A stretch of 64,000 nucleotides of DNA from Morchella semilibera (lineage: Eukaryota > Ascomycota > Pezizomycetes > Pezizales > Morchellaceae). The stretch is taken from positions 248,001 through 312,000 of the forward strand of contig WBVU01000011.1 of the NCBI GenBank assembly GCA_009192285.1, written 5' to 3'. Every line of letters begins with the position of its first letter. Positions within the stretch are counted from its first letter, which is position 1. Shown in pieces: positions 4,380-54,524 of the stretch. Under the pieces are notes generated by a model. It ran no database searches. It was not told the DNA's origin and saw nothing but the letters and a program-made list of their open reading frames with translations. The position numbers and the translations under genes were made by a program.

Positions 4380-6716
4380 ATGTCGGCTCCTCCTATCCCT
4401 TCAAGTCCGGTTAGATCCGTCGGTATCACTCCACCAGACTCATCTCTGTGGACTCGTCTAACAACATTCGCCTCGGAAAACAAGGCTGTTGTTTACACTA
4501 TCGGTGCTGTGGTGGTAATTGCCGGGGCCGGTGGTATTTACTACGTCTCGCAACAGTCGCGAGAAGCCGGAAAGTCCGGAAAGGCTAAGAAAGATAGACG
4601 AAAGGATGTCAGGGACAAAGCTTCGTCGAAGGAAAAGAAGGTTGCAGATGGTGAGAACTCCAATTGGGGATTATTCATGCTGTCATGGAAGTTTTTTTTT
4701 TTTTTTTTTTGTGTGGGCTTTGTATGACGTATTGTGGGGCGCTCAATATGCTGATTGTTTATATGTTTCAGAAAGCCAATCCCAACCCTCAGAACAAGAG
4801 GAAGCTTATCCTGAAGTGGATGAGGAAATTTTGAAGACTTTGACGCCCGAGGTACATGGTCCTGTGCATTTTGGTATTTTTTTTTTTTTGTTTGTGGTGC
4901 GGGTGTTTTAACATTGGTCTCTATTAGCAAAAAAAAGATTATGCCAGCAAACTCAAGGCCGCCGGTAACAAGGCATATGGTAACAAGGAGTTTGACCTAG
5001 CTATCGAGCTGTACAGCAAGGCCATTCTCTGCAGACCAGATCCGATTTTCTACTCCAACAGATCTGCCTGTTACAATTCTCTGTCACAATGGCAAAAGGT
5101 CGTTGATGATACGAGTGCAGCCATTGCGCTTGATCCAGAATATGTGAAGGCTCTCAACCGCCGAGCTCATGCTTATGAGCAGCTTGAGAACTACAGCGCA
5201 GCCTTGTTGGATTTCACGGCCAGCTGTATTATCGATGGGTTCAGGAATGAGGGTGCCGCACAGAGTGTCGAGAGATTGCTTAAGAAGGTTGCTGAGGCAA
5301 AAGGAAAGGCTATGTTGGCGGCTAGGCCCAAGAAATTACCTTCGTGCACCTTCGTTTCCAACTATTTGCAAAGCTTCAGGCAGAAGGACCGGCCAGCGGG
5401 TCTTGAGGACTCCGCACCTCTGCAAGAGGATACTGGAGATTACCATTTGAGAACCGGTCTCCAGGCTGTGGAGAGAAAATCCGTTGACGGATACGAGGAG
5501 GCTAGTGAAGAATTTGAAAAGGCTATGCAGCTTGGTACAAACTTTGAGGCCTACGCGTTGAACTGGAGGGGTACTTTCAAATATCTGCGGGGAGACCCTA
5601 TGGAGGCGTTGGAGGATGTGAGCAGGAGTATCGAAACGGACACGACAATGACCCAGAGCTACATCAAGCGGGCCAGCATGCTTTTGGAACTTGGTAATTC
5701 TCTGCACGCCCAGCTATGGTGGGATAAACATGGAGGTTAACGGATATTACAGGTGATCGCGAAGGTGCTTCTATGGACTTTGCCACTGCTCTCGAGAAAA
5801 ATCCAGACGACCCGGATATCTACTACCACAGGGCGCAGCTCCACTTCATCCTCGGAGAATTCGCGGAGGCCGCCAAGGACTACCAGAAGTCAATTGACCT
5901 CGACAGGGACTTCATCTTCTCGCACATCCAACTTGGTGTTACGCAATACAAGATGGGCTCGGTTGCGTCCTCGATGGCGACGTTCCGAAGATGCATCAAG
6001 AACTTTGAAAAGACACCTGATGTGTACAACTACTTCGGAGAACTTTTGCTTGACCAACAAAAGTATTCAGATGCCATTGAGAAATTCGATACCGCGGTCG
6101 AAATGGAGAAGACAGCCAAGCCGATGGCGATGAACGTTTTGCCATTGATTAATAAAGCGCTAGCACTGTTTCAGTGGAAGCAGGATTTTGCTGAAGCCGA
6201 AAAGCTTTGCGAAAGAGCCCTTATTAGTATGTTTCGAGATTTTCTTTTGGATTTTTACCTTGCTGACTGGCGGGTTTAGTTGATCCGGACTGTGATATCG
6301 CTGTGGCGACAATGGCCCAGCTGCTTCTGCAGCAGGGCAGGGTAAATGAGGCGCTCAAATACTTTGAGAGGGCTGCTACACTTTCGCGGACCGAGGCAGA
6401 GATTGTAAATGCGTTGTCTTATGCTGAGGCTACCAGGACACAGCTTGAGGTAAATACTGTCCCTTTGAGATCCTAACTCCATGCATTTCATCCCATTTGT
6501 TTTTGTGGCGCACTCGATGATGATTCCGCTTTATATCATTGAAGGCCCCTTGGGCTATATGTTGATACTATGTTGATTTCTGAGTTTATGCCACAACCAA
6601 ACCTACGCACTCTCTCTATGATCGAGTACTGATTCGCAAAACCCCGGGGATTTTAGGTACAAGAGAAGTATCCTCAGTTGGCAAACAGACTTCAGGGGAT
6701 GGGCGGTATGAGATAG
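4380..6716 (+). CDS. TOM70: Tom70 mitochondrial import receptor
   Basis: There are six exons: 4380-4650, 4772-4851, 4928-5693, 5753-6226, 6280-6449 and 6657-6716. They give 606 residues, close to the usual Tom70 length. The N-terminus has a short intermembrane-space head, then a membrane anchor at about residues 36-56 ([20 protein letters not shown]) and a Lys/Arg-rich stop-transfer and linker region. After an acidic linker come tandem TPR repeats, beginning [23 protein letters not shown], whose first group forms the Hsp70/Hsp90-binding clamp in known Tom70. The later repeats (for example [19 protein letters not shown]) form the presequence and carrier binding core. The end is GMGGMR, close to known Tom70 C-termini. 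Role: outer-membrane receptor for carrier-type preproteins. Introns 1 and 2 contain long poly-T runs. All junctions preserve frame. Confidence 0.95.
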
Positions 6717-12083: not shown

Positions 12084-13905
12084 ATGACGACCCCCAAGAT
12101 CACAGGCATGACGCCCAACACGTTCGCCTTCTCCCCTGCGCTTCTCGGCCAGTCGCCGGCCGCCCACCAGCTCCTCAGTAAGCACCGCTCGCCAGCACCC
12201 CTCCAGGCAGGCTTCAGCACCCCCGAAGCTATCGCGAGCATGGGGATCGGCCTGACTCCCAACGCTGCCGGAAACTTGGGTATCCCGCAGATCAGCATGA
12301 GCGGTATGAACCTGCCCCCGGACGAGAGCAAGAAGCGAGAGCTGGCGGAGATATTGCGGCTGCTGGCGTCGAAGCCGGGGAGGATCTCGGAGGAGGGGGT
12401 GGAGAGACTCGCGAAGCGGATGGGGTGCGTATATACGCTTCGGTGGTGGAGCTGTTGGCTGATATTCTCAAAGGCTAGAATGCTACAAAGATACAACAGT
12501 GCCTGGCGTGACCACAATGTCGCTCGCGGCGAAGATCTTCCTCCTTGACATTGATTTCCGTGACTCCCAGATTCCCCGTGTCGCTCTCTCCTTTGCGAAT
12601 ACGGTGGGCCCGTCACAGGAGCTTGCTCACCTCGCGGACGCAATCTTGCACAAGAACCTCAGTCCGAGCCCGAAGGGGCACCCGCCACTCGTACCGCCCT
12701 CGCTGTCCGCGTTCGCGGATAACCTAAACCGCCTCGCAAAGACTGACCGCCTCAGCTCGCCCCCACACCTGAACTGCTTCACGGCAATAACGGGCCTCTA
12801 CTCCTCTCTTTCCAAGATCTTTGCACACGAGTCCACAACCCTCGAGGGCGGCGCAGCAGCCGCAACATGCAAGGGCACCGGCCACCCGCGCATGCACGTG
12901 CGGTCAAAGGTCGGCCTCAGTATCGACTACTGGCAGGAGAACCGCTACACCAGCCCCCTCCCAAGCGATAGCTCCGACGAGGAATCGGACATAGACCCGA
13001 AGACCTACCGTGTCCTGATCGAGGTCGAGGAGCTCCCCACAGACTTCAACCACATCAACCCAATAACCCCAGTCCGCACGTCCTCCGAGTGGGTCTCCGA
13101 GGAGATCAAGAAGCCCAGCGACTCCACCGACAACCTCTTTGGCGACTCGCCCGACTCCGACGTCACGGACTGGCTGGACCCGCCGCTCGAAGAGCTCCTC
13201 GAGACACCCATACCAGCGCGCTTCGTGGCAGTGCTGGACCCACCGCTCGCAATCCCCTTCGTCGACGAGCTCCACCTCTTCAACGCCCTCATGCTCCCGG
13301 CGCCGTCCGGGATAAGCGCAGGCACCCTCGAGGCACTCCTCTTCCCCGGGACCACCACCACCACCGTAGGCACATCGCTGGAGCGCACCCGCCGCGTCTT
13401 TGTCGGCGCGGACGACGACGAGACAATCCTACACCGGTACAAGCTGCACACGGGCCACAAACCCGTCTACTCCCGCTTCATCCACGAAGTCCCCTTCTCG
13501 CACCCAAAGGAGCTCGTCGGCGTCTTCCAGATCCTGCGCCAGTTCGCCCTCGTCGGGACCCTCCTGCGCAGCTGTTTCGACCCCCTTGCCCCTGCGCCCG
13601 CGCCCGCGCCGGCGGAGGACGGACAGGACGACGACCTGGACGCGTTCATGGGCGATGGGCCTGCGGAGGGGGATGCGCCGCTGAAGGTTGATGTCTCGCT
13701 TGTCAGTAACCAGGAGGGGGGCTTCTGCGTGGGCGTGATTTATCCGTCTGGGGGCGGGCTGACGAGCTTTGGGGTCGAGGTGGGCAGGAATGCGGAGGTG
13801 AGGGTGGTGGGGGATGTGGATGCGGGGGGTGCGGAGAAGGCTGTGGTGGTCAGTGAGGACTTGGGTATCGTGGTGGAGTGGATCAGGAGGGCTGCGGGTA
13901 GGTAG
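12084..13905 (+). CDS. MED1: Mediator complex subunit 1 (fungal Med1)
   Basis: There are two exons, 12084-12424 and 12474-13905, giving 590 residues. The 49-nt intron has a GCTGAT branch point and AAAG acceptor and joins RMG to LECYKDTTVPGVTTMSLAAK. The N-terminus resembles fungal Med1 (MTTPKITGMTPNTFAFSPALLG). The helical Med1 domain follows (residues ~85-480), with SLAAKIFLLDIDF, a LADAILHKNL helix and the LSIDYWQENRY strand segment. The C-terminal third has an Ala/Pro repeat (near 13585-13615) and an acidic stretch. Med1 is a Middle-module Mediator subunit that contacts activators and relays them to RNA polymerase II. Codon use is strongly C/G-ending compared with neighbouring genes. The assignment rests on length, N-terminal phrase and the conserved VPGVTTMSLAAK block. 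Confidence 0.85.
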
Positions 13906-25018: not shown

Positions 25019-26778
25019 GGCGTGGATGTAATTAATTGTATAGCTAGCTATAGCTCAATTAATCAATAGACGTAGACTAGCTATATATATATTTCCCCTC
25101 TCGCTACGAGGAGATTGTGGTTCTGAAAATAGCTTGAATTGGCTATTTTGTGGTGTTTTCAATATTTCTTGTAGTAAAATTAGATCTCGTGACGTATATT
25201 TAGGTATAGTTGCTCAATGAGTAGACTTACATGTATGTGTATATTCTCGGGCAGTGGTGGTTCTGACGTATGAGGAGGAAGATTTCCTGCTCTTCTGGCG
25301 GTCTGCGTAAAAATGATAAGAAGACAAAAAAGGTTGTGGTGAATTCTGACGTAAGGGGACGAGGCCGGGTGGTTGTGGTTGTGGTGGATTGGTTCTCCGT
25401 GGACAGAAAGACAGACAGACAGACAGGCGAGTATACTCTTTTTCTGTCTCGCCGAGCGTCTAGATCCTTCGTTTTCGCTTTTGGAAAAGAGAGTTCGTGG
25501 CTTTTTTTTCCCTTTTTTTTCTCTTCCTGCCTGCTTGATCGTGGCCTCTCGTCTCCTGCCCTTGCTGTGACTGTGTCTAGCTGTGTGTGTGGCTACGCGT
25601 GGGGCACGTATACAGTCTCTCGGGTAGGTTTATAAAAAAAGATTGGCTTATAGATATGATTTACGCAGCAGGAGGGTTTTAGAGAAAAGAAGTTTGTGTG
25701 TGCGCGCGCGCATATGTGATATACACGAGCAGAAGAAGAAGAAAATGTTTATGTTACTCCCTCCAACAGCGGCAGCACCCACTCCCATTTATACCCCTCC
25801 CCCCCAGATCTGGACGCTAGCCTTCTAGATCTGGCGTCCGCGATGGGTGAGATCATAGGTCCTCGTTGTCGCTTGATGTGGCTAGGTGGCGTGGCGAGTG
25901 AGATCCTGTGACGGGGATCCGGGGGGGGGTTATCTCCGTGGTGGTTGGGGGATTGTTAGGATACGAGTGCGAGTGTACTGACAGGAAAAGGGTTGGTTGG
26001 GGCTGGATTGGGAAGGGGGGGGGAGTGAGGAGGTGTACGTACGGGCGTATGATTGTTGGTCACTGGTGCGAGGGTGGGTTTTGGGGGGGGAAAGGTACTG
26101 TGCTGGGGGTGCATGGGATCGGGAAGAGGGTCGTTTAATTGACTGCTGGCCTGGCGTCGTGTGTTTAATAATTAGAGGTGCATGTATAGAGTATGTGTGT
26201 TCTGATCATCAATACTGACTGCATGTTTGGCAATGCACGGTTGTTGAGGGTCAAATTAATACATCTACATTTTGTAGCTGTTGCAATTGTATTGTGTGCT
26301 CGCTTAGAGAGACCAAATGTCTCTTATAAAAACACATATATCCATACCGTAGTCTCGTTCCCAGACTGTTGTTTTGTTGTCGCGCAGTAGCGCTGTGTGC
26401 AGAGGATCACCACAGGCTGGGCACGAGACTACAATGTACCTATAACGTAATATACACTTGCATGTCTACTGTTCTGGATATAAACACTGCTCATGTGTAC
26501 ATGTAGTCATTAACTTGTATTATTAGATCTCAGAGTACACATCCCCACTAATCTAAACTACACACACAACCACTTCATACATGTATCCTTAACGTATCTT
26601 CGTCCTCATCTTCACCCCCCATCTCCAAATTCATGAAGGTGGCCCATACTTAGTGGTCAACCTACTCTTGAAACCATCACGTACCTTTAAAATCACTACA
26701 TTCATCCTCCCCCAGGTATCTATAGTATACTCATAATCAAAAGAGAAAGAAAGGAAAAAAATCACGAGCCACCACAAG
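25019..26778. other. intergenic region with a short inverted-repeat element
   Basis: The region lies between the divergently transcribed hypothetical gene and the ankyrin gene. It holds the inverted-repeat element at 26349-26432, TACATGTA at 25228, 26498 and 26578, a (CAGA)n tract near 25408-25424, a G-run near 25921 and an AGCTATA-rich palindromic patch near 25038-25092. No coding gene is supported. Confidence 0.55.
26349..26432. mobile_element. 84-bp element with 16-bp terminal inverted repeats (MITE-like)
   Basis: The left end reads GTAGTCTCGTTCCCAG (26349-26364) and the right end CTGGGCACGAGACTAC (26417-26432). The reverse complement of the right end matches the left at 15 of 16 positions. 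The 52-bp interior is unrelated to genes here. No clear target-site duplication is visible. It could be a small non-autonomous transposon or an RNA hairpin. The right-end core (ACGAGACT) also occurs near 2193 and 34321. Confidence 0.45.
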
Positions 26779-28074
26779 ATGACTTCTGCTTCATCCCCCC
26801 TCCGAGATCTCACTCTCGACTCCAAATCATCATCTCCCCTATCAACCACCTCCGAAAAGTTGCAAGAAAACTCCCCACCACTCTCTCCACCCTCTCCAGA
26901 TAACTCCACAAAACCCGCCTCTCCGTCCGCTGAGAGCGCCATCTCCATGAAGTCTGCCACTCCCGATAGCATTAGCGCCCCCGTCAAAACTCCTACATCC
27001 ACCTCAATCTCCCCAATCTCCCCGCTCTCCCCTACCAAGCGGTCGCCAAGATCAGAACCCACTAACCAAAATGCCGACCCCATCACCAAGTTCCTACTCG
27101 GAAAATTCCCGTTCATCCGCTCAGACTACGAGCACCGCCCTCTGTTCTCATCTGCTATCCTCTGGACATCCCGCTTCGGCCACTATCACCCAGCCCGTTG
27201 GCTCATTGAGCACGGGGTCGATCTCACACAGCCCAACACCAGTCCCATGGGAAAGCTTCGCACCCCACTCCACTACGCCGCTCTCTACGGGCACAAAGAG
27301 CTTCTTGCCTATCTTATCATTAAATACACCTCCGCCTCATGCCCGCTCGACACCCCCCGGGATCTCTACGGCTTCACGCCCCTCCACCTTGCATGTATCG
27401 AGCCCCAGACACAAGTCATCGATACCCTTATTCAGCACGGCGCCTCTCCCACAGTGCGCACCTCCGCTAGTGATACTGCGCTCCATATCGCCGCCAAGAC
27501 GGCCGGTGAGGCCGTAGTCGAGCTCCTCGTCGAGGCCGGGGCCGACCCTAATGCGCGCAACATCGGCGGCTATACACCGCTCATGGTCGCTGCAGAGCTC
27601 GGCAATGAAGAGGCGATCCTCAAGCTAGCCGAGTATGAGCTTGATCTTAACGTGCGGGCCGAGTGGAGCGGTGACACGGCACTGCATATGGCGGTACGGG
27701 GGGCGCACTTGATGGCGGTGGTGTATCTGCTGCGTATGGGCGCGCAGTATGGTATTCGCAACTTTTGCGGACGGAGAGTGCTGGATTATGGGTGGGAGGA
27801 TATGCCGAGGTTGAGGCGGAGGGAGGCAATCGGCGTGGTGCGTATTCTACGAAGTTTACTAGAGGGGAGGGAGAGGTTTGAGGCTGTGGCGGAGGAGGAG
27901 ACGGGGCGGGGGAGAGGAAGGGAGAGGGGAGGGAAAGGAAAGGTTGTGGGCGCGTTTTCGGCAGAGGGGGTGAAAAGGGGCGGTAGTGGGAGGAAAAGTG
28001 TGTATGACGAGGAGGAGGAGGAGGAGGAGGAGGAGGAGAGTTGGGAGAGCGCGATGGGGAAGAAGGGAGAGTAG
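26779..28074 (+). CDS. ankyrin-repeat protein
   Basis: This is a single exon of 431 residues. Residues 1-110 are Ser/Pro/Thr-rich and probably disordered. From about residue 125 a run of roughly six ankyrin repeats follows. Clear repeat cores are RTPLHYAALYGHKELLAYLI (from ~161), YGFTPLHLACIEPQTQVIDTLI, DTALHIAAKTAGEAVVELLV, GYTPLMVAAELGNEEAILKL and DTALHMAVRGAHLMAVVYLL, ending near residue 350. The tail is Gly/Arg-rich, then has an uninterrupted Glu run encoded by a GAG repeat (about 28010-28036). Ankyrin arrays bind partner proteins and the specific partner is not predictable. No other domain, signal peptide or membrane segment is visible. The start follows AAG and is the first ATG of a frame that stays open to 28074. 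Confidence 0.85.
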   Translation: MTSASSPLRDLTLDSKSSSPLSTTSEKLQENSPPLSPPSPDNSTKPASPSAESAISMKSATPDSISAPVKTPTSTSISPISPLSPTKRSPRSEPTNQNADPITKFLLGKFPFIRSDYEHRPLFSSAILWTSRFGHYHPARWLIEHGVDLTQPNTSPMGKLRTPLHYAALYGHKELLAYLIIKYTSASCPLDTPRDLYGFTPLHLACIEPQTQVIDTLIQHGASPTVRTSASDTALHIAAKTAGEAVVELLVEAGADPNARNIGGYTPLMVAAELGNEEAILKLAEYELDLNVRAEWSGDTALHMAVRGAHLMAVVYLLRMGAQYGIRNFCGRRVLDYGWEDMPRLRRREAIGVVRILRSLLEGRERFEAVAEEETGRGRGRERGGKGKVVGAFSAEGVKRGGSGRKSVYDEEEEEEEEEESWESAMGKKGE

Positions 28075-42132: not shown

Positions 42133-45100
42133 ATGAATCGATCATCAAGGCCAGAGGATTTACAGATACAGAGGTCATCTACTTCGACGCGGGCGCGAAG
42201 TCGAAGCATTGGATCAGTGGATAAACCATTAAGCTCCAATGGCTCTTCTATTTACTCACTCGCCAATCCTTTGACAAATGTCGCCCCAGAGCCAGCTTAT
42301 ATTGCAGCTTCAGCAGCCACAGGGATTGTGACAGGTAACCATGAAGGGTTTTTACATGACGAGGAAAACGCTGGTCATGCAACATCAACTATACCAGTTA
42401 CACCAGCTTCATTAAAACTTATCAATCAATTCCTAGATTTTCTTCTATATTCATTTCTTTCAGCATCAAAATCGACTTCATTGAAGGCTCTCCGGCCAGC
42501 AGTATCAGAAGTTCTCCGAAACCGGTTGGCAAAGGAGGCTGTTGCTGGAGCTGATCACGAGCTAAGCTCGTACCTTGGTGGAGGAGATGACGGGGATGAT
42601 TTTGATGGGCTGAATGAAGCCCCGGAAATTAGTGCGGAATGGGACTTGGAGACCGCATGGAAGAAGACCAGATTGCGGTGTATGGTTTACTCGTCACTTG
42701 GAGATATTGAGGAAGAGGATGAAGAGATTTACTCGGGATATGGAAATCTCGAAGGAATCGTTGGTTCTCAGCAATACGAACAGAACAGCATCGTGCCCGG
42801 CGTTGTTTCTCCAGCAGTAGCAATATGGCTCACAGCTGTTTTGGAGTTTATGGGTGAACAAACATTGCTCCTGGCTGGTCACGCAGCTATCAATCGCTAC
42901 ATTCAACGGGATATAACTGAGAGAGAAAGGCCCATGGTTGAAGAGCTGGATACAGAGAAAGTTGCGTTAAATTCCTCATTGGGCCGACTATGGAGGCAGT
43001 GGCGTAAACGCTTGCGCGCTAGAGGGTCTTCATTTTCCTCGCCTGGTCCTCACGGGGGAATTCTGCAACGACTTGAGCGTACTGCTAGCAGAATGAGCAG
43101 CAGAAGTACACTAACGGACCCAAAAAATGTGCAACCCGAACCACCAGAAATCAGAGAAGAGATGGTTGGTACCGCAGACAAAGAACCTGAAACAAATACC
43201 GAGAACCAATCGAAGAAGGTTTGTAATAACGCCTGATATCTAGCTAAGGGGTGGTAGTAGTGACTTGCTGACATTTCGAAGACCCCCATCCCTGCAGAAA
43301 AGGGAGCCTTGGAGTCAATAACCACTACTTCTAACCTGAACTCTGGCCATGATTACTTAGTATGTCACCTACTCTACCATTTTCATTGGCTATTATCCAC
43401 GAAAACTATATCTAACACCCCAAAAAAGTATTTCGAAGATAGTCCAAGAAGGCGCCCACAAAGTTTGGTATTGTTGCCTTCAACAACAACAGAAGCACCG
43501 TTTGTGCTTTCCCGATCCATTAAACGGCATAACTCCTTACCTGTAATTATTCGTTCGGAGTTTCCTGATCCGGTTGTTGAGGGTGCTCCAGAAACCGAAG
43601 ATACAGAAACAGATTTTGAGGATATCGATGGTGAATTTTATACACCTGCGGAAGAGGAGCTCAACTCGGATATATCTGTTCAGGTTGTGAGACCTGCGTC
43701 CGAGCAGCTAGGCCCGTTAGGGAAATCTTACTTTCCTCCTCAAGAGCAGCCCGAGAGATCGACTGTTCAGGGAATTGACAAATCTAAAGTCACTGAATCC
43801 AAACCTTTGAATGAAAAGACCGAGGCTTTGAAAAAAGCTCCGGCCCCTGATGATGGAGTTTCGGAACTTACTTTCTTCTCGCAGGCTACCGATGACGAGG
43901 ATGATGGAGAAGATGATCGTCGTAGTGTTATCGGATCAGCTCAAACGTCAGATATTCGTGTCCAGCCTTCTGCAGCCCAGGCACCATTGCCCTTACATAA
44001 GTCTGGTGACTGTTCTGGGCATGATCATGCTGAAAATGTTGTCCCGAAGTTCGAGCGTTTTACGCCAACATCATCAAGGCGACCAGCTGAGCTTGTAGAA
44101 ATACGCACAAACGGCCGTGTCTCAACTTTCCAGGAACAGCGTGCTGCAGATCGACGACCGTCGGCAACAACACTGGCAGAATTGGCCGATTCAGACGATG
44201 AATCACCAACGTCTACAACAACTCATAGATATTTTGTCGAAGGAGGCAGGCTGACACCTGGTGGTACTAATCAAATTACGGGTGATTACTTTGCGCATGC
44301 AAAAAAGGCTTCCTCGGCCAGCAGCAAGTACTCCCAGCATTCGCAGCTTTCGGACAGGAAGCTTGGGCAGCTCACGCTAATCCAGCCTCCCGGAAGCACC
44401 GTATCACTGCCCTCTGAACGGGGGAACGTACGGGCATGGACACCCCCTCAGACACCAAATAAATCACGGCGCTCATCAAGTTCTGGAAAAGTGCAACGTC
44501 CGGTTACATCACATTCAGGTACATCGCAAAACTCCACAAAGCTTAAGAGCCTCATTGCATGGCCTATGGATTGTGGAAAGCAGTCGAGAGAGTCAGACGA
44601 TGAAAGCAGGAGTAGCTTACATAGTGAAAGGCCATCTACAAAGCTTGCTAGCTTGGATGATAAGGAACGTAGCTTTGAGGAATTGATTTCTAGTGGTGAT
44701 ACTATTCACTGTACAATAACGCCGGACCCCCTAAGACGGATGGAGGTTTGTAAAATGTCGCCTATTATCAGAGTTTGATAAAGCTAATAGTTCAATAGTC
44801 AAAAGAAAACCAAACACCACGCACTGCAACATCGGCACTTGCGGACTTCTTACGAAATACTGGACCGGACGGCAAGGAGGTGCGTGCTACACCACCAAGC
44901 AGATCTGGCAATTCTTCAAGGCCTTCTACCGCCCGCGCAATCCCAATAATTCCTAAAGATCCTAGTCTTGAGGACGTAGCCTCGCTTACTCAGCTACTTC
45001 GATCCACTTCGGCTTCTCCCTCCGAAACAAGGCCTCAAACACCCACAACCTCTATTCCATCTCCTCATAACCCTACTTACAGCCCAGCTTCACGACGTAT

Positions 45101-46253
45101 GTATGGGCCTAGTTCAGTAGCTGCCTCTCCGAAGGCCGGCAGCGAATCCACACCACTAAATCCGGGTGGAATTACCGGAATTCCAGCTGTAATCAGGCAA
45201 TATCGATCCGACTCACTCGGGTCTCGCCCAAAGAACCGTCTTGTGGCTCGTCATGCAAGTGGCTTTACGACAAGCGACTCTACCTCTGCACTTGCCGATT
45301 TCTTTCGCAATACTACACCTCCTGTCGACGTAGATGGACAAGTCACTCAGCGCCGTATTTCCCGAAGCGTCGCGCCATTTCGAAATACTATGGACTCCGA
45401 CCAGTTTGAGCTCCCAGAAGCTGAAGCTGAGCCTGTGATAAACAATGCAACACTACCTAACGAGCTTACATTCTTAACTAGTGCTGCTGCGCCACCCGAT
45501 TCCTACCAGTCGTCGTTCTCGTCTTCGACAGCTCTTCTACGGAATAACTCAAAGAAGCAACATGACTACGGAGCAGTCAGTTCTATGCCAGAGACTAAGC
45601 GGAAACAGACACGAGTCAAAGATCCGTATGCGATTGACATGGACGACGAGGATGAGGATGAAGACATGGAGGCGTTAAATCTGATAATCCCAAAGAAAAA
45701 AAAGGAAGATGAAAGTCTTATGGACTTCCTTCGCAATGTACCGCCACCTCCTCAGCCACCTACGCCGCCTCAAGAGAACGAAGAAAAGACAATACAGAAG
45801 AAAAATAGCTCTGTCAGTTTGATCGGTCGTTTCGGCAGAAGTGGACGAAAGAACTCGATCGCTTCAAACGCCGATAAATTCCCCTTCCCACCCGTTCCGC
45901 AAATACCTGGAGGATACAAGCATACTCCTCTAGCTCAAGAAGACGATTCCTCCTCCTCCTCCTCACGGTATATGCAAGGAGGGGAGCAGCGACGCACTCC
46001 TTATGACCCCCGAGTAGATATAGACCCCATGGCGAATCCTGCCCGTTTCGGCAACAGAACTCAAATCAGGGGTGGCGCTCAAGCCAGGGGTGGCCGGACT
46101 GATAGGGAGGAAACAGATAGACTTGCAGATTTCTTGAAGTTCAGCGAACCACCAACACAACATGCCCCCGCTCCAAAGGAGGACACCAGCGCGATGGCCA
46201 AGTTCAAGAACTTCACCTTTTTGAGAAAATCGAAGAGGAATGAGGTCTTTTGA
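42133..46253 (+). CDS. large protein with tandem H2B-like and H2A-like histone folds
   Basis: The preferred exons are 42133-43218, 43298-43313, 43361-44745 and 44799-46253 (1,313 residues). I do not recognise a named family. Residues ~90-149 read like histone H2B: SLKLINQFLDF matches the H2B alpha-2 start, and PAVSEVLRNRLAKEAVAG...SSY matches the H2B alpha-3/alpha-C stretch around LAKHAV. Residues ~218-288 read like H2A: WLTAVLEFMGEQTLLLAGHAA matches the H2A alpha-2 helix at roughly 14 of 22 positions, and LDTEKVALNSSLGRLW fits H2A alpha-3. An acidic linker (~150-217) joins them. The remaining ~1,000 residues are Ser/Pro/Asp-rich and probably disordered, with four copies of a (L/M)(A/M)DF(L/F)(R/K) motif. 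The N-terminal histone tails are absent. It may be a chromatin protein, which is inference. The first intron junctions are uncertain: skipping the 16-nt exon and using acceptor 43302 also keeps frame. Confidence 0.8.
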
Positions 46254-50023: not shown

Positions 50024-52942
50024 TTATGCCTCCTTCGCCTCTGGCTGCAACTTGAGGTTTGCCATAATGTTTTCTAGCCCCTCTGTTCCAGACACCTTAT
50101 CCTTATCCACCTCTTCCGACAAAACCTTAACACTCTCGCAATCCTTAACAAGGAAGTGCCACAGGCCTAGTTCTTCAAACTTATCTAGGCGCTTTAAACC
50201 GGCTTGTTTAATATAGTTCTCCAGAACCGGCCATACCGTAATATCGGCAAGACTAATCTCAGGCCCCGATAGATACCGCTTTGTCCTAAACAAATACGCA
50301 TCCCAAATTGCCAATTCAGCATCAATTGCGGTCTGGTTATCACTTTGTAATACTTTGTGTAGTCTTTCACTTTCCTGCATCTGCTGTAGAACCTTCGCAA
50401 AAGCGGCCCTTTCATCAACAAGAGACGGTAGCAGAAACTTTTCAGGGTCCTTGGAGGGGTGGAACATTTCAATGTACTGAAGAATTGAGAGTGCCTCACA
50501 AACTATTGTTTTTTCGCGGTCAACATCCACAAATACTGGAGTGGTGCCTCGAGGGCTCAAAGCACGGAAGGAGGGCGAATCAATTTCACCGGGCTCGAGC
50601 TCATGAGGAGAAAATTGAATCCCTTTCTCCAGTAGGCACATGCGGGCTTGCATGCTGCCAATATCACCTTTTGTAAAAAAGAGTTTTGGTAGCTGCGGGA
50701 CAAAATGCAGGACATCAAAGCCCCCACCGTATGCTGCATCCCAGTCAAAGTCGCTTTGGTGGTTTTCGGAGCCAAAGGCTTCGATCAGCTTTTGGGTTTC
50801 CGGATCGTCACCATTGACAACAGGCCGTGGATCTTCCTCGGACTTGGAGACGGCACCTTGACCCCATATTTCTTTTTCGTCGGCTGAAAGGAAGGTCCCG
50901 ATATGGCGGAATGTTAAGGAGATTCTTTCGCCGTTGTGAGACATCTCCTGGGCGTTCTTGAGGCTCTTCTCACGACGGTCCTGTCGGATTCCGTGAAGCC
51001 ACTTTTTGTTTGTTTCAAGACCTAGGACAAACATCGAGTTATGGGGAAGTGGTATACGCTGGGTTGTTCGTTCTGGGCCAGAGCCTTCTGGCCGGTTTGA
51101 ACTCCTCTTGGGTGACGCTTCGGCAGCTTTCTTTGCGGCATCCTTTTTTGTTCGGAGAACCATGGTTCGCTGAGCACCCAGACTGACATTGACGATTTTG
51201 GACCCTCGCACGATGTCGAGGGTCTTATCAGAGTGTTCGGATATGTAATCATTGCCATCGCGGTAGTGTTGAATTAGAACATGGTTCACAGGATGTTTCA
51301 GGACCCTTTGGACGCATCCCACTATAAGCTGTACCGTTGGAGAGAATGGGAGAAGAGGAGGCGACTCGTCAGCTGGATGGCGATATATCGGGAAGCTTTG
51401 ATATGATGTTAGTCGCGAAGAAGAAACCGATTACTGATCTCAAGCATACCTTCCGTCATCATTAATTACCCCCTCCACTGCGACCATTCTCGGGACCTCG
51501 CCACCTCGATGGTACATAGTCCTCCAGGCCACCTCTCTCTTTAGGTTCTCGAATGCCAGTCTAGCCAGGGGTTGAGGCAGGATATTATTGACCAGATTTG
51601 AATCGCCTTCACCAAGGAAATCACCTTCTCCCATGATTGGGGATTTTGAATCGAACTTGTGGCTCCCGGGAGGACTGCTACCTTGGGAGACTGTATTCGA
51701 CTTGTCGCGTCTCGAACTGCCTGCGTGTGATTTCTTCTTTCTATGTTCCCTATATACCTTTTCGTCTTTTTTCTTCCCCTCATTGCCAATATTATTGCCC
51801 GCGCCTGATCCGGATGCCTCAGCTGCCTCATTTCTGGATATTGACCCCTTTGAAGCCCTTTGAGCACTTCTTACTGACTTCAAAACCACATTACTCTCTT
51901 CACTAATCGGCGCCAGATCAGTTGGGATTAGGTGGACATCGTCAACCGGCGGGGAAGCCGAACTTTCCGCCGTAACTCCCTTGATAGGCCCTGCAGATGA
52001 GTTCTTAGTGCTCTCACCATTACCACCATCACCTGCCACCTTTAGCCCCTCCACCATTGCAACCAACTGCTCTTTCGAAAGATTGGTGGCCCCCAATTGA
52101 ATACTGGCTGATCCGTTATCGCTATTACTATTGCCCCCAGCCTTCAACCTCTTTCTCTCCCAACTCCTCACCAATAACCCACTCCTAACTTCTTCCACCC
52201 CATAATCTTCAGCCATGACCCTTAATGACTGCTGGTGTGCCGTTAAATTCCTGTATCCTAGACAGTCCTGCAACACAAAAATCCTCAAACCATGGGTGCT
52301 TGCATCGGCTGCCGTTGCAAGAACACATATATTGGTGAGAACTCCACATATATACAACTCCGAGACGAACCGCCCTCTTAGCGTCTCAATAAGACCTGTC
52401 TCTTTGAAAGCTGAGAACCATGTCTTTACCAAGACCTTATCAGGCGGTGAGATCGACGAAACGATTGATGGGTGAAACTCGCACGCGGGAGTCCCCGGCT
52501 TACACGGTGGATGACTGCTCTCAATCGCCAGGAACGCGTCGGAGCGTAGCGGGGGTCTTGCGCCATTCGCAAGCTTCGGCTTAGGGCTAGGGAGCCTTCT
52601 ACTTCCCGGCGTTGTTCCTGCCCCTACTGCTCCTCCGCCGGCCTCATTGCCGTTGGCCTTGTGGTTGTTGTGCTCTGTCTCTGAGTCGGACGAATCGTCG
52701 TCGTCTCTAATTATGAGTACAGTCTGTTGGTTGAGAGGGTCGTTAAGGTCACGTGGTTTTTGGTGCTCGCTCCGCACCCAGATGACGTCGCCACCGTTTG
52801 CGCGGAAGTGCGGGACGAAGGCTTTGATATTCTCGACAAAGGACGGCTTCCCTTGAGGGGGGCCGGCCATGATGCAACGGCCAATATCAGGATCAAGAAA
52901 CTCATTCTGGATTCCTAGGACGAGGAGGGCGCTACGAGCCAT
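50024..52942 (-). CDS. fusion: isochorismatase-like + AlkB-like 2OG-Fe(II) oxygenase + GST
   Basis: There are two exons, complement(51450-52942) and complement(50024-51395), giving 954 residues. Domain 1 (~1-245) is cysteine-hydrolase-like: SALLVLGIQNEFLDPD, Lys173 in VKTWFSAF and Cys206 in GVLTNICVLATA. The family's catalytic Asp (normally in DxQ) is Gly10 here, so hydrolase activity is doubtful. A disordered Ser/Lys-rich linker follows. Domain 2 (~460-670) is AlkB-like: NHVLIQHYRDGNDYISEHSD with iron ligands His552/Asp554 and probable third ligand His632, then the 2OG-binding RISLTFR. Domain 3 (~734-954) is a GST: thioredoxin-like N-half (SMQARMCLLEKGIQFSPHEL, GTTPVFVD) and helical C-half (SGPEISLADITVWPVL). 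The intron joins domains 1 and 2 in frame. The start MARSALL was chosen over upstream in-frame ATGs because it begins right at the domain. The substrate is unknown. Confidence 0.9.
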
Positions 52943-54524
52943 GTTTATAAGGATCTTCTTTTCGCTACCAGTACTTATGGGGCTGGCATATACTGATATA
53001 ACTGGGCAAGATGAGAGTAAGGTTACTTGTATGCACTGCAGCTGAGGAAGGGGGGGGGGGGTAACAAAAGAGACCACCAGAGTTAATATAACAGAGTGTC
53101 AAGGACAGGATGAAGAGTGAAAAGGCGTGAGAGAACAAGAAACGAAGAAAGAGGGATTTTTGCCTCCTTTATTCTAATACCTCCACATAAAAGAATGCCA
53201 GAGAATGCCAGGAAAAGAGCAGGGAGAGCTGTGCGACTTGCTGCCGCCGCGGTTTTCTGGGCGATTGTCCCGAGAGTCTGGAAAGACTGAGTCACTAGTG
53301 TCTGTCCACTTTCACATTACTTGCACTTTCCTCTCAACTCACCCTCACCCACACGGGAAGAGACATTGTGGTCACATCGTTTGGTTTGGGGCTCTGGGGC
53401 TCTGGGGGGGTTTGCGGTGAGTGGGATACCTGGCTGAGAAAGAAAGCAGACCCTGCAAATTACAATATGCTACCGGAAAAACTACATGTATGTACATGTA
53501 TGTACCTAGCATTACCACGTATGGGTTTTTGGGCTTTCTGCAGGACTACCCACATGAGGTGCTCTAGCTACCCTCTGTACCAACTCTGGAAAGGTCAACC
53601 CGCCAGTCAGTAGAGTTATTAGAGACTTTGCGCAAATGGAGTCAGTTCTATATTATATTTCAATTATCTAATTGATAGGCTATGGGATCGGCATCAATCA
53701 GGTTACCGGAAAATAGAGCTGGCTCCATTTACACAGAGTGTCTATTGGGAAAACCTGTGTGGGTTGAATTTTTTTTTATTTCATTTGGTGCCTAGTTGAT
53801 TAAGGGAAGGGGGATAGGCCATGGAGAGATGATCACCAGCCACTCAGGCGCTTTTTTTTTTTTGTTTGATCCGTTACATGCTTGGTTGCTGCAAACCGCC
53901 GCCGCAGGCCGACAACGAACGCTGCTTAGTAGTCTGGAAAATCAATCTCGGATATCCGCATCACAGACCATCACCAACACTCGCAAAACTACTAACCCAG
54001 AGCAAACCAAGCTAGCTAGGCTTCAGGCCGTTCAGCAACTAATTAATGTGTACCTACATGTACATAATTTTACATAAATAAACACTCCTATTCTCAGGAT
54101 CTAAACCATTATAGAACTAATTCCACCCGAATACGGCCAAGGCAGCTAGGCACCAAGCATAAATCCTACAATTATTGGGCCTTAGATCTCTCAGTAGATT
54201 TTTCTCTAGCCGGGTATTTTTACTAATACTACATACTATTACTTACTCAAATTCTTTGTGCAGTAGTCAGAATTACCCTAGTATCTTAACGATATTACTT
54301 GCCTGAACGATTCAAAAGCAAACAGAGATGGGGATTATTTCTTGAGGACTTATCTTCTTATATGTGCGTGCCTTTTCTCGAAGAGTATCTTCCCACGACT
54401 ACCACTCAAATTCTCAACACCTTAGTGCCGCTAAAATATTTATCTTAGTGAGGCTTTGAGAATATTTCGATATACAATTACAACTCATCCCCACGGACAA
54501 GTCAGCGTCGATTAATATCCAACA
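52943..54524. other. divergent intergenic region, no gene seen
   Basis: This is the shared upstream region of the three-domain gene (leftward) and the CCCH gene (rightward). A G-run is at 53050-53061, just upstream of the leftward gene. TACATGTA occurs at 53483, 53493 and 54055. T-rich runs are near 53770 and 53852. No coding gene is supported. Confidence 0.55.

Follow-up and report, generated by a model that had tools for sequence, protein, structure and literature searches.

The closest described counterpart of the protein reported here is the histone domain of SOS (PDB 1q9c and 3ksy), in which an H2B-like fold is likewise followed by an H2A-like fold in one chain. According to the accessible part of one account, this domain binds phosphatidylinositol bisphosphate (PIP2) and phosphatidic acid (PA) and autoinhibits the protein, which also has DH-PH, REM and Cdc25 domains (PMC3762125). 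The accessible sections of a 2026 review name Sos as the only double histone fold of eukaryotes whose cytosolic localisation is strictly confirmed, describe its fold as being without the electrostatics for nucleic-acid binding, and contain a table for cellular life that holds archaeal and bacterial proteins, SOS, ABTB2, SPT3 and HSIH, with SPT3 as the only fungal entry (PMC13088155). Here we describe a gene of the ascomycete Morchella semilibera, at positions 42133–46253 (+ strand) of a 64,000-nucleotide stretch of contig WBVU01000011.1 (the window), whose product is predicted to carry such a pair of folds. We somewhat favour the view that it is a double-histone-fold scaffold, in which a SOS-like interaction module heads a motif-rich tail.

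The H2B-like fold (42283–42582, + strand; residues 51–150) comprises α1 (59–78), α2 (91–112), α3 (117–127) and αC (130–147), and its block-mean predicted local distance difference test score (pLDDT) in the AlphaFold2 model is 82–97. Residues 44–152 of the model align with one-fold chains from nucleosomes or dimers (rows 36–50 of the structural matches), which we take to be H2B; by sequence comparison this half is weak, the hhalign comparison with H2B giving E 5.9e-4 at a probability of 29%. The H2A-like fold opens with an extended α1 helix (42640–42732, + strand; residues 170–200), reading WxxTRLRCMVYSSLGD and then the acidic EEEDEE, and modelled as a helix over residues 172–200 with block-mean pLDDT of 92 and 87 over 171–190 and 61 over 191–200. 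It continues with α2 (227–258), an L2 strand (269), α3 (271–279) and αC (284–298) at 42805–43026 (+ strand), where block means are 74–98. The hhalign comparison of this half with H2A gives E 1.9e-5 at a probability of 78%, while sequence matches to H2A and H2A.Z in the PDB are weak and not significant alone. The fold ends in a basic Trp/Arg helix, GRLWRxWxKR (42982–43026, + strand), of net charge +4 to +7.

The structural search returned fused H2A–H2B chains, mostly at Z 12.9–14.7 and some from chaperone complexes, with the SOS histone domain 1q9c as the best match. Two consecutive folds in one chain also occur in the Methanopyrus kandleri histone (1f1e) and in a SAGA chain, 6t9i_C, which we take from the table of the review to be Spt3. 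The initial annotation of the DNA had proposed that H2B-like and H2A-like folds are fused in one large protein and form an intramolecular dimer, and had called for a structure prediction; the AlphaFold2 model shows two consecutive histone folds, its helix pattern and the matches to two-fold chains confirm the fusion, and residues 51–298 are predicted with high confidence to self-fold into an H2B–H2A-like pseudodimer.

In charge and acidic patch this pseudodimer departs from nucleosomal histones. In alignment A2, which consists of the Morchella protein and 77 of its 180 matches (78 rows), the net charge of the folded segments has a median of −2 (range −8 to +5), against +11 for the yeast H2B and H2A cores and −1 for the SOS1 histone domain, so that the strongly basic core of nucleosomal H2A/H2B is not found. 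With loops included, residues 50–300 of the Morchella protein carry a net charge of −15 (isoelectric point 4.77), and the acidic stretch after the H2A-like α1 has a median net charge of −9. When the residues listed for the H2A/H2B acidic patch in the accessible part of PMC10878826 were mapped onto A2, one of the eight positions proved acidic. That position, H2A E56, is E in 78/78 rows, whereas E61 is replaced by Q in 76/78 and E64 by V, L, I or M in 74/78. For H2A D90, E91 and E92, the mapped positions lack an acidic residue in at least 76, in 78 and in 78 rows, respectively; a shift of this mapping by one residue is possible and would place an Asp (position 280) there in 38/78. On the H2B side, the E105 position is K or R in 71/78 rows, and the E113 position is G in 53/78 and acidic in none.

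The family also has invariant features of its own. R285, W287, R288, W290, K292 and R295 of the Trp/Arg helix, and R180, C183 and M184 of the H2A-like α1, are each found in all 78 rows, and we know of no histone counterpart for any of them; histone-like positions such as N98, F100, D102 and E238 are also invariant. In alignment A3 (84 rows, fragments included), the six Trp/Arg-helix positions stand at 90% or more, as do most of the other positions invariant in A2. The stretch from N98 to A123, covering α2, L2 and the start of α3 of the H2B-like fold (42424–42501, + strand), is 26 residues long in 78/78 rows and 35 in yeast H2B, a shortening by nine residues; SOS aligns across it with one single-residue gap.

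The tail, about 1000 residues long, is marked by repeated motifs. Over residues 301–362 it is modelled at a block-mean pLDDT of 46–60. The motif SLADFLRNxxP recurs as LADFLRNTGP (44838–44867; residue 841), LADFFRNTTP (45291–45320; residue 992), LMDFLRNVPP (45717–45746; residue 1134) and LADFLKFSEPP (46122–46154; residue 1269), all on the + strand. A pattern composed after the motif had been seen, [LIM][ADMTIEK][DEN]F[LFM][RKHMSLN] followed by P after 1–5 residues and located past residue 320, occurs at least once in 88 of the 92 matches longer than 1150 residues (from the 180), with a mean of 1.9 copies versus 0.002 in shuffled sequences; the four copies in the Morchella protein are counted by a looser pattern. 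To our knowledge, this repeat has no known binding partner, and a literature search with five letter strings of the motif found no paper. The tail further contains a block, SFEELISSGDTIHCTITPDPLRRME (44671–44745, + strand; residues 803–827), conserved in alignments A1, A2 and A5, with the family form RSFEQLIxSDxTIQYTLTP, and a conserved basic block, KRKQTRVKDPYAID (45597–45638, + strand), with the A2 consensus RKxRRVxDPYAID, which is a possible nuclear localisation signal.

The likeness to SOS extends from the order of the folds to the near-neutral charge and the short α2–α3 spacing of the first fold, despite 15% identity over the aligned residues; the two proteins differ in that the Morchella protein has a long tail with repeated motifs and, in its three long exon open reading frames, no Pfam family at E ≤ 1. 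Single-chain H2A–H2B and the Marseilleviridae (Melbournevirus) doublets have the same fold, and the viral doublet, judging from the title of a paper, shares the H2B–H2A order. In contrast to these, the Morchella protein has a different charge and differs at most acidic-patch positions (yeast and the listed residues serving as reference), and it has the shortened H2B α2/L2 relative to yeast, longer helices and the long tail. Three observations favour a SOS-like module: the protein differs from nucleosomal histones in its charge, its acidic patch and its shortened helix; charge and helix deviate in the same direction as in SOS; and many of the strictly conserved positions are non-histone features. 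Shaped like a histone pair but lacking the histone charge pattern, the protein probably serves to hold molecules together rather than to pack DNA.

From the computed fold, order, conservation, charge and motifs, we infer a ligand, a gating role and a place outside the nucleosome. The pseudodimer would most likely bind proteins or a membrane lipid, not nucleosomal DNA, through two features particular to the family, the invariant Trp/Arg helix with which the H2A-like fold ends and the extended α1 helix of that fold, which is strictly conserved. The tail, with its up to four SLADFLRNxxP motifs and its FEELI block, would recruit partners or dock back on the pseudodimer. By analogy with SOS, whose histone domain gates the protein, the head may gate the tail.

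The main rival is a nuclear role, in which the pseudodimer would act as a histone mimic that docks transiently on H2A–H2B chaperones, remodellers or DNA in a regulatory capacity, as proposed for the ABTB2 proteins; we regard it as possible, though rather unlikely. ABTB2 (Cca3) also combines a histone-like pair with other domains in one eukaryotic protein, and the accessible sections of the review give ABTB2-type double histone folds possible DNA-binding roles, with no solved structure in its Table 1 (PMC13088155). It differs by its ankyrin and BTB domains, of which the Pfam search of the exon frames gave no sign. The matches to fused chains, the basic block of the tail and the H2B loop K/R-S-T (residues 113–115), which is largely kept, fit a nuclear mimic, and the kept loop counts against the favoured scaffold; binding of the pseudodimer to histone chaperones is possible. 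The near-neutral folded segments, the acidic stretch after α1 and the loss of most acidic-patch positions speak against the mimic.

A second alternative draws on the distribution of the family. A first search of 4510 candidates placed 906 at E ≤ 1e-3, a second, with an Orbilia member as query, gave 821 of 7998 scored, and named matches were taken from the best 120 of each; a third, over short lengths only, gave 56 of 4373 at E ≤ 10, each of them at E ≤ 1.1e-36 and none between that value and 10. Among the best 120 of 906, the closest relative is a protein from Morchella snyderi that shares 92% identity across residues 80–320. The named matches include Pezizomycetes, Orbiliomycetes, Leotiomycetes and Sordariomycetes; by taxonomy look-up, others belong to Geoglossomycetes and Lecanoromycetes, and one more is leotiomyceta incertae sedis. 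Many matches are unnamed; among the named and recognisable ones listed, none lies outside Pezizomycotina, and no Eurotiomycetes or Dothideomycetes were recognised. The expectation of the initial annotation that the protein is conserved in Pezizomycotina yet uncharacterised thus holds for several classes, going by the names among the matches listed. Some relatives are named Flo11 flocculin in UniRef and NCBI, a label that is probably misleading and that perhaps stems from their Ser/Thr-rich length; the three long Morchella exon frames match no Pfam family at E ≤ 1.

All placeable named matches fall in a group studied for septal pores, and the protein could be a scaffold at the septal pores or the cortex in multicellular fungi, its disordered tail localising to septa and its fold serving as an anchor, as for SPP/SPA proteins. 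Of the 23 SPP proteins in the accessible part of one study, nine lack known domains and are restricted to Pezizomycotina, and 13 contain highly disordered stretches (PMC10023807); nothing found ties the Morchella protein to that set, and we consider this role improbable. The initial annotation had also suggested that the protein could replace H2A–H2B in special nucleosomes, which is very unlikely given seven of eight patch positions mapped as non-acidic, a median net charge of −2 against +11 in yeast, an H2B α2/L2 short by nine residues, a tail of about 1000 residues, and separate H2A and H2A.Z genes in the genome. That the histone resemblance arose by chance in an unrelated helical domain is scarcely credible beside the predicted fold, even though the H2B half and the PDB sequence matches are weak and no histone model is among the 18 Pfam families weakly matching any of 56 family members.

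A splice search and an open-frame test predict four exons (42133–43218, 43282–43359, 43429–44745 and 44799–46253, + strand) encoding 1311 amino acids; an alternative acceptor for exon 2 at 43302 would give 1304. The frame at 42400–42999 falls within the intact first exon, and the M-x-R-x-x-RP start common to homologues of similar length agrees with the gene start. The genome contains two matches at 100%, on two contigs, and one other at E 0.33. Because the two are identical across the 3777 compared bases, they are read as a single locus assembled twice, and the gene seems to be single-copy; the assembly apparently holds two copies of the region.

Elsewhere in the window, a Mediator subunit Med1 (12463–13902, +; PF10744, E 6.6e-71) and an ankyrin-repeat protein (26737–28071, +) are encoded. 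A TPR-repeat protein matching TPR families spans two frames at 4928–6276 (+); a Sti1-like co-chaperone is only a guess. At 50024–53098 (−), two adjoining frames encode first an isochorismatase domain (51443–53098) and then an AlkB-like 2OG-Fe(II) oxygenase domain together with glutathione S-transferase domains (50027–51430), perhaps one fused protein.

The same order, the same short H2B helix and the similar near-neutral charge lead us to propose, speculatively, that the histone-like pairs of SOS and of the fungal family share one H2B–H2A pseudodimer ancestor that left chromatin before the animal–fungal split, after which Pezizomycotina would have built a motif-rich scaffold and animals would have joined it to a Ras exchange factor. 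Among the papers listed by the literature searches, no account of the fungal family was found, and for fungi the review lists SPT3 alone. A widespread, strongly conserved fungal family would join the few double histone folds listed for eukaryotes, call the database name Flo11 into question and offer a testable second example, after SOS, of a histone pair whose use probably lies outside the nucleosome.
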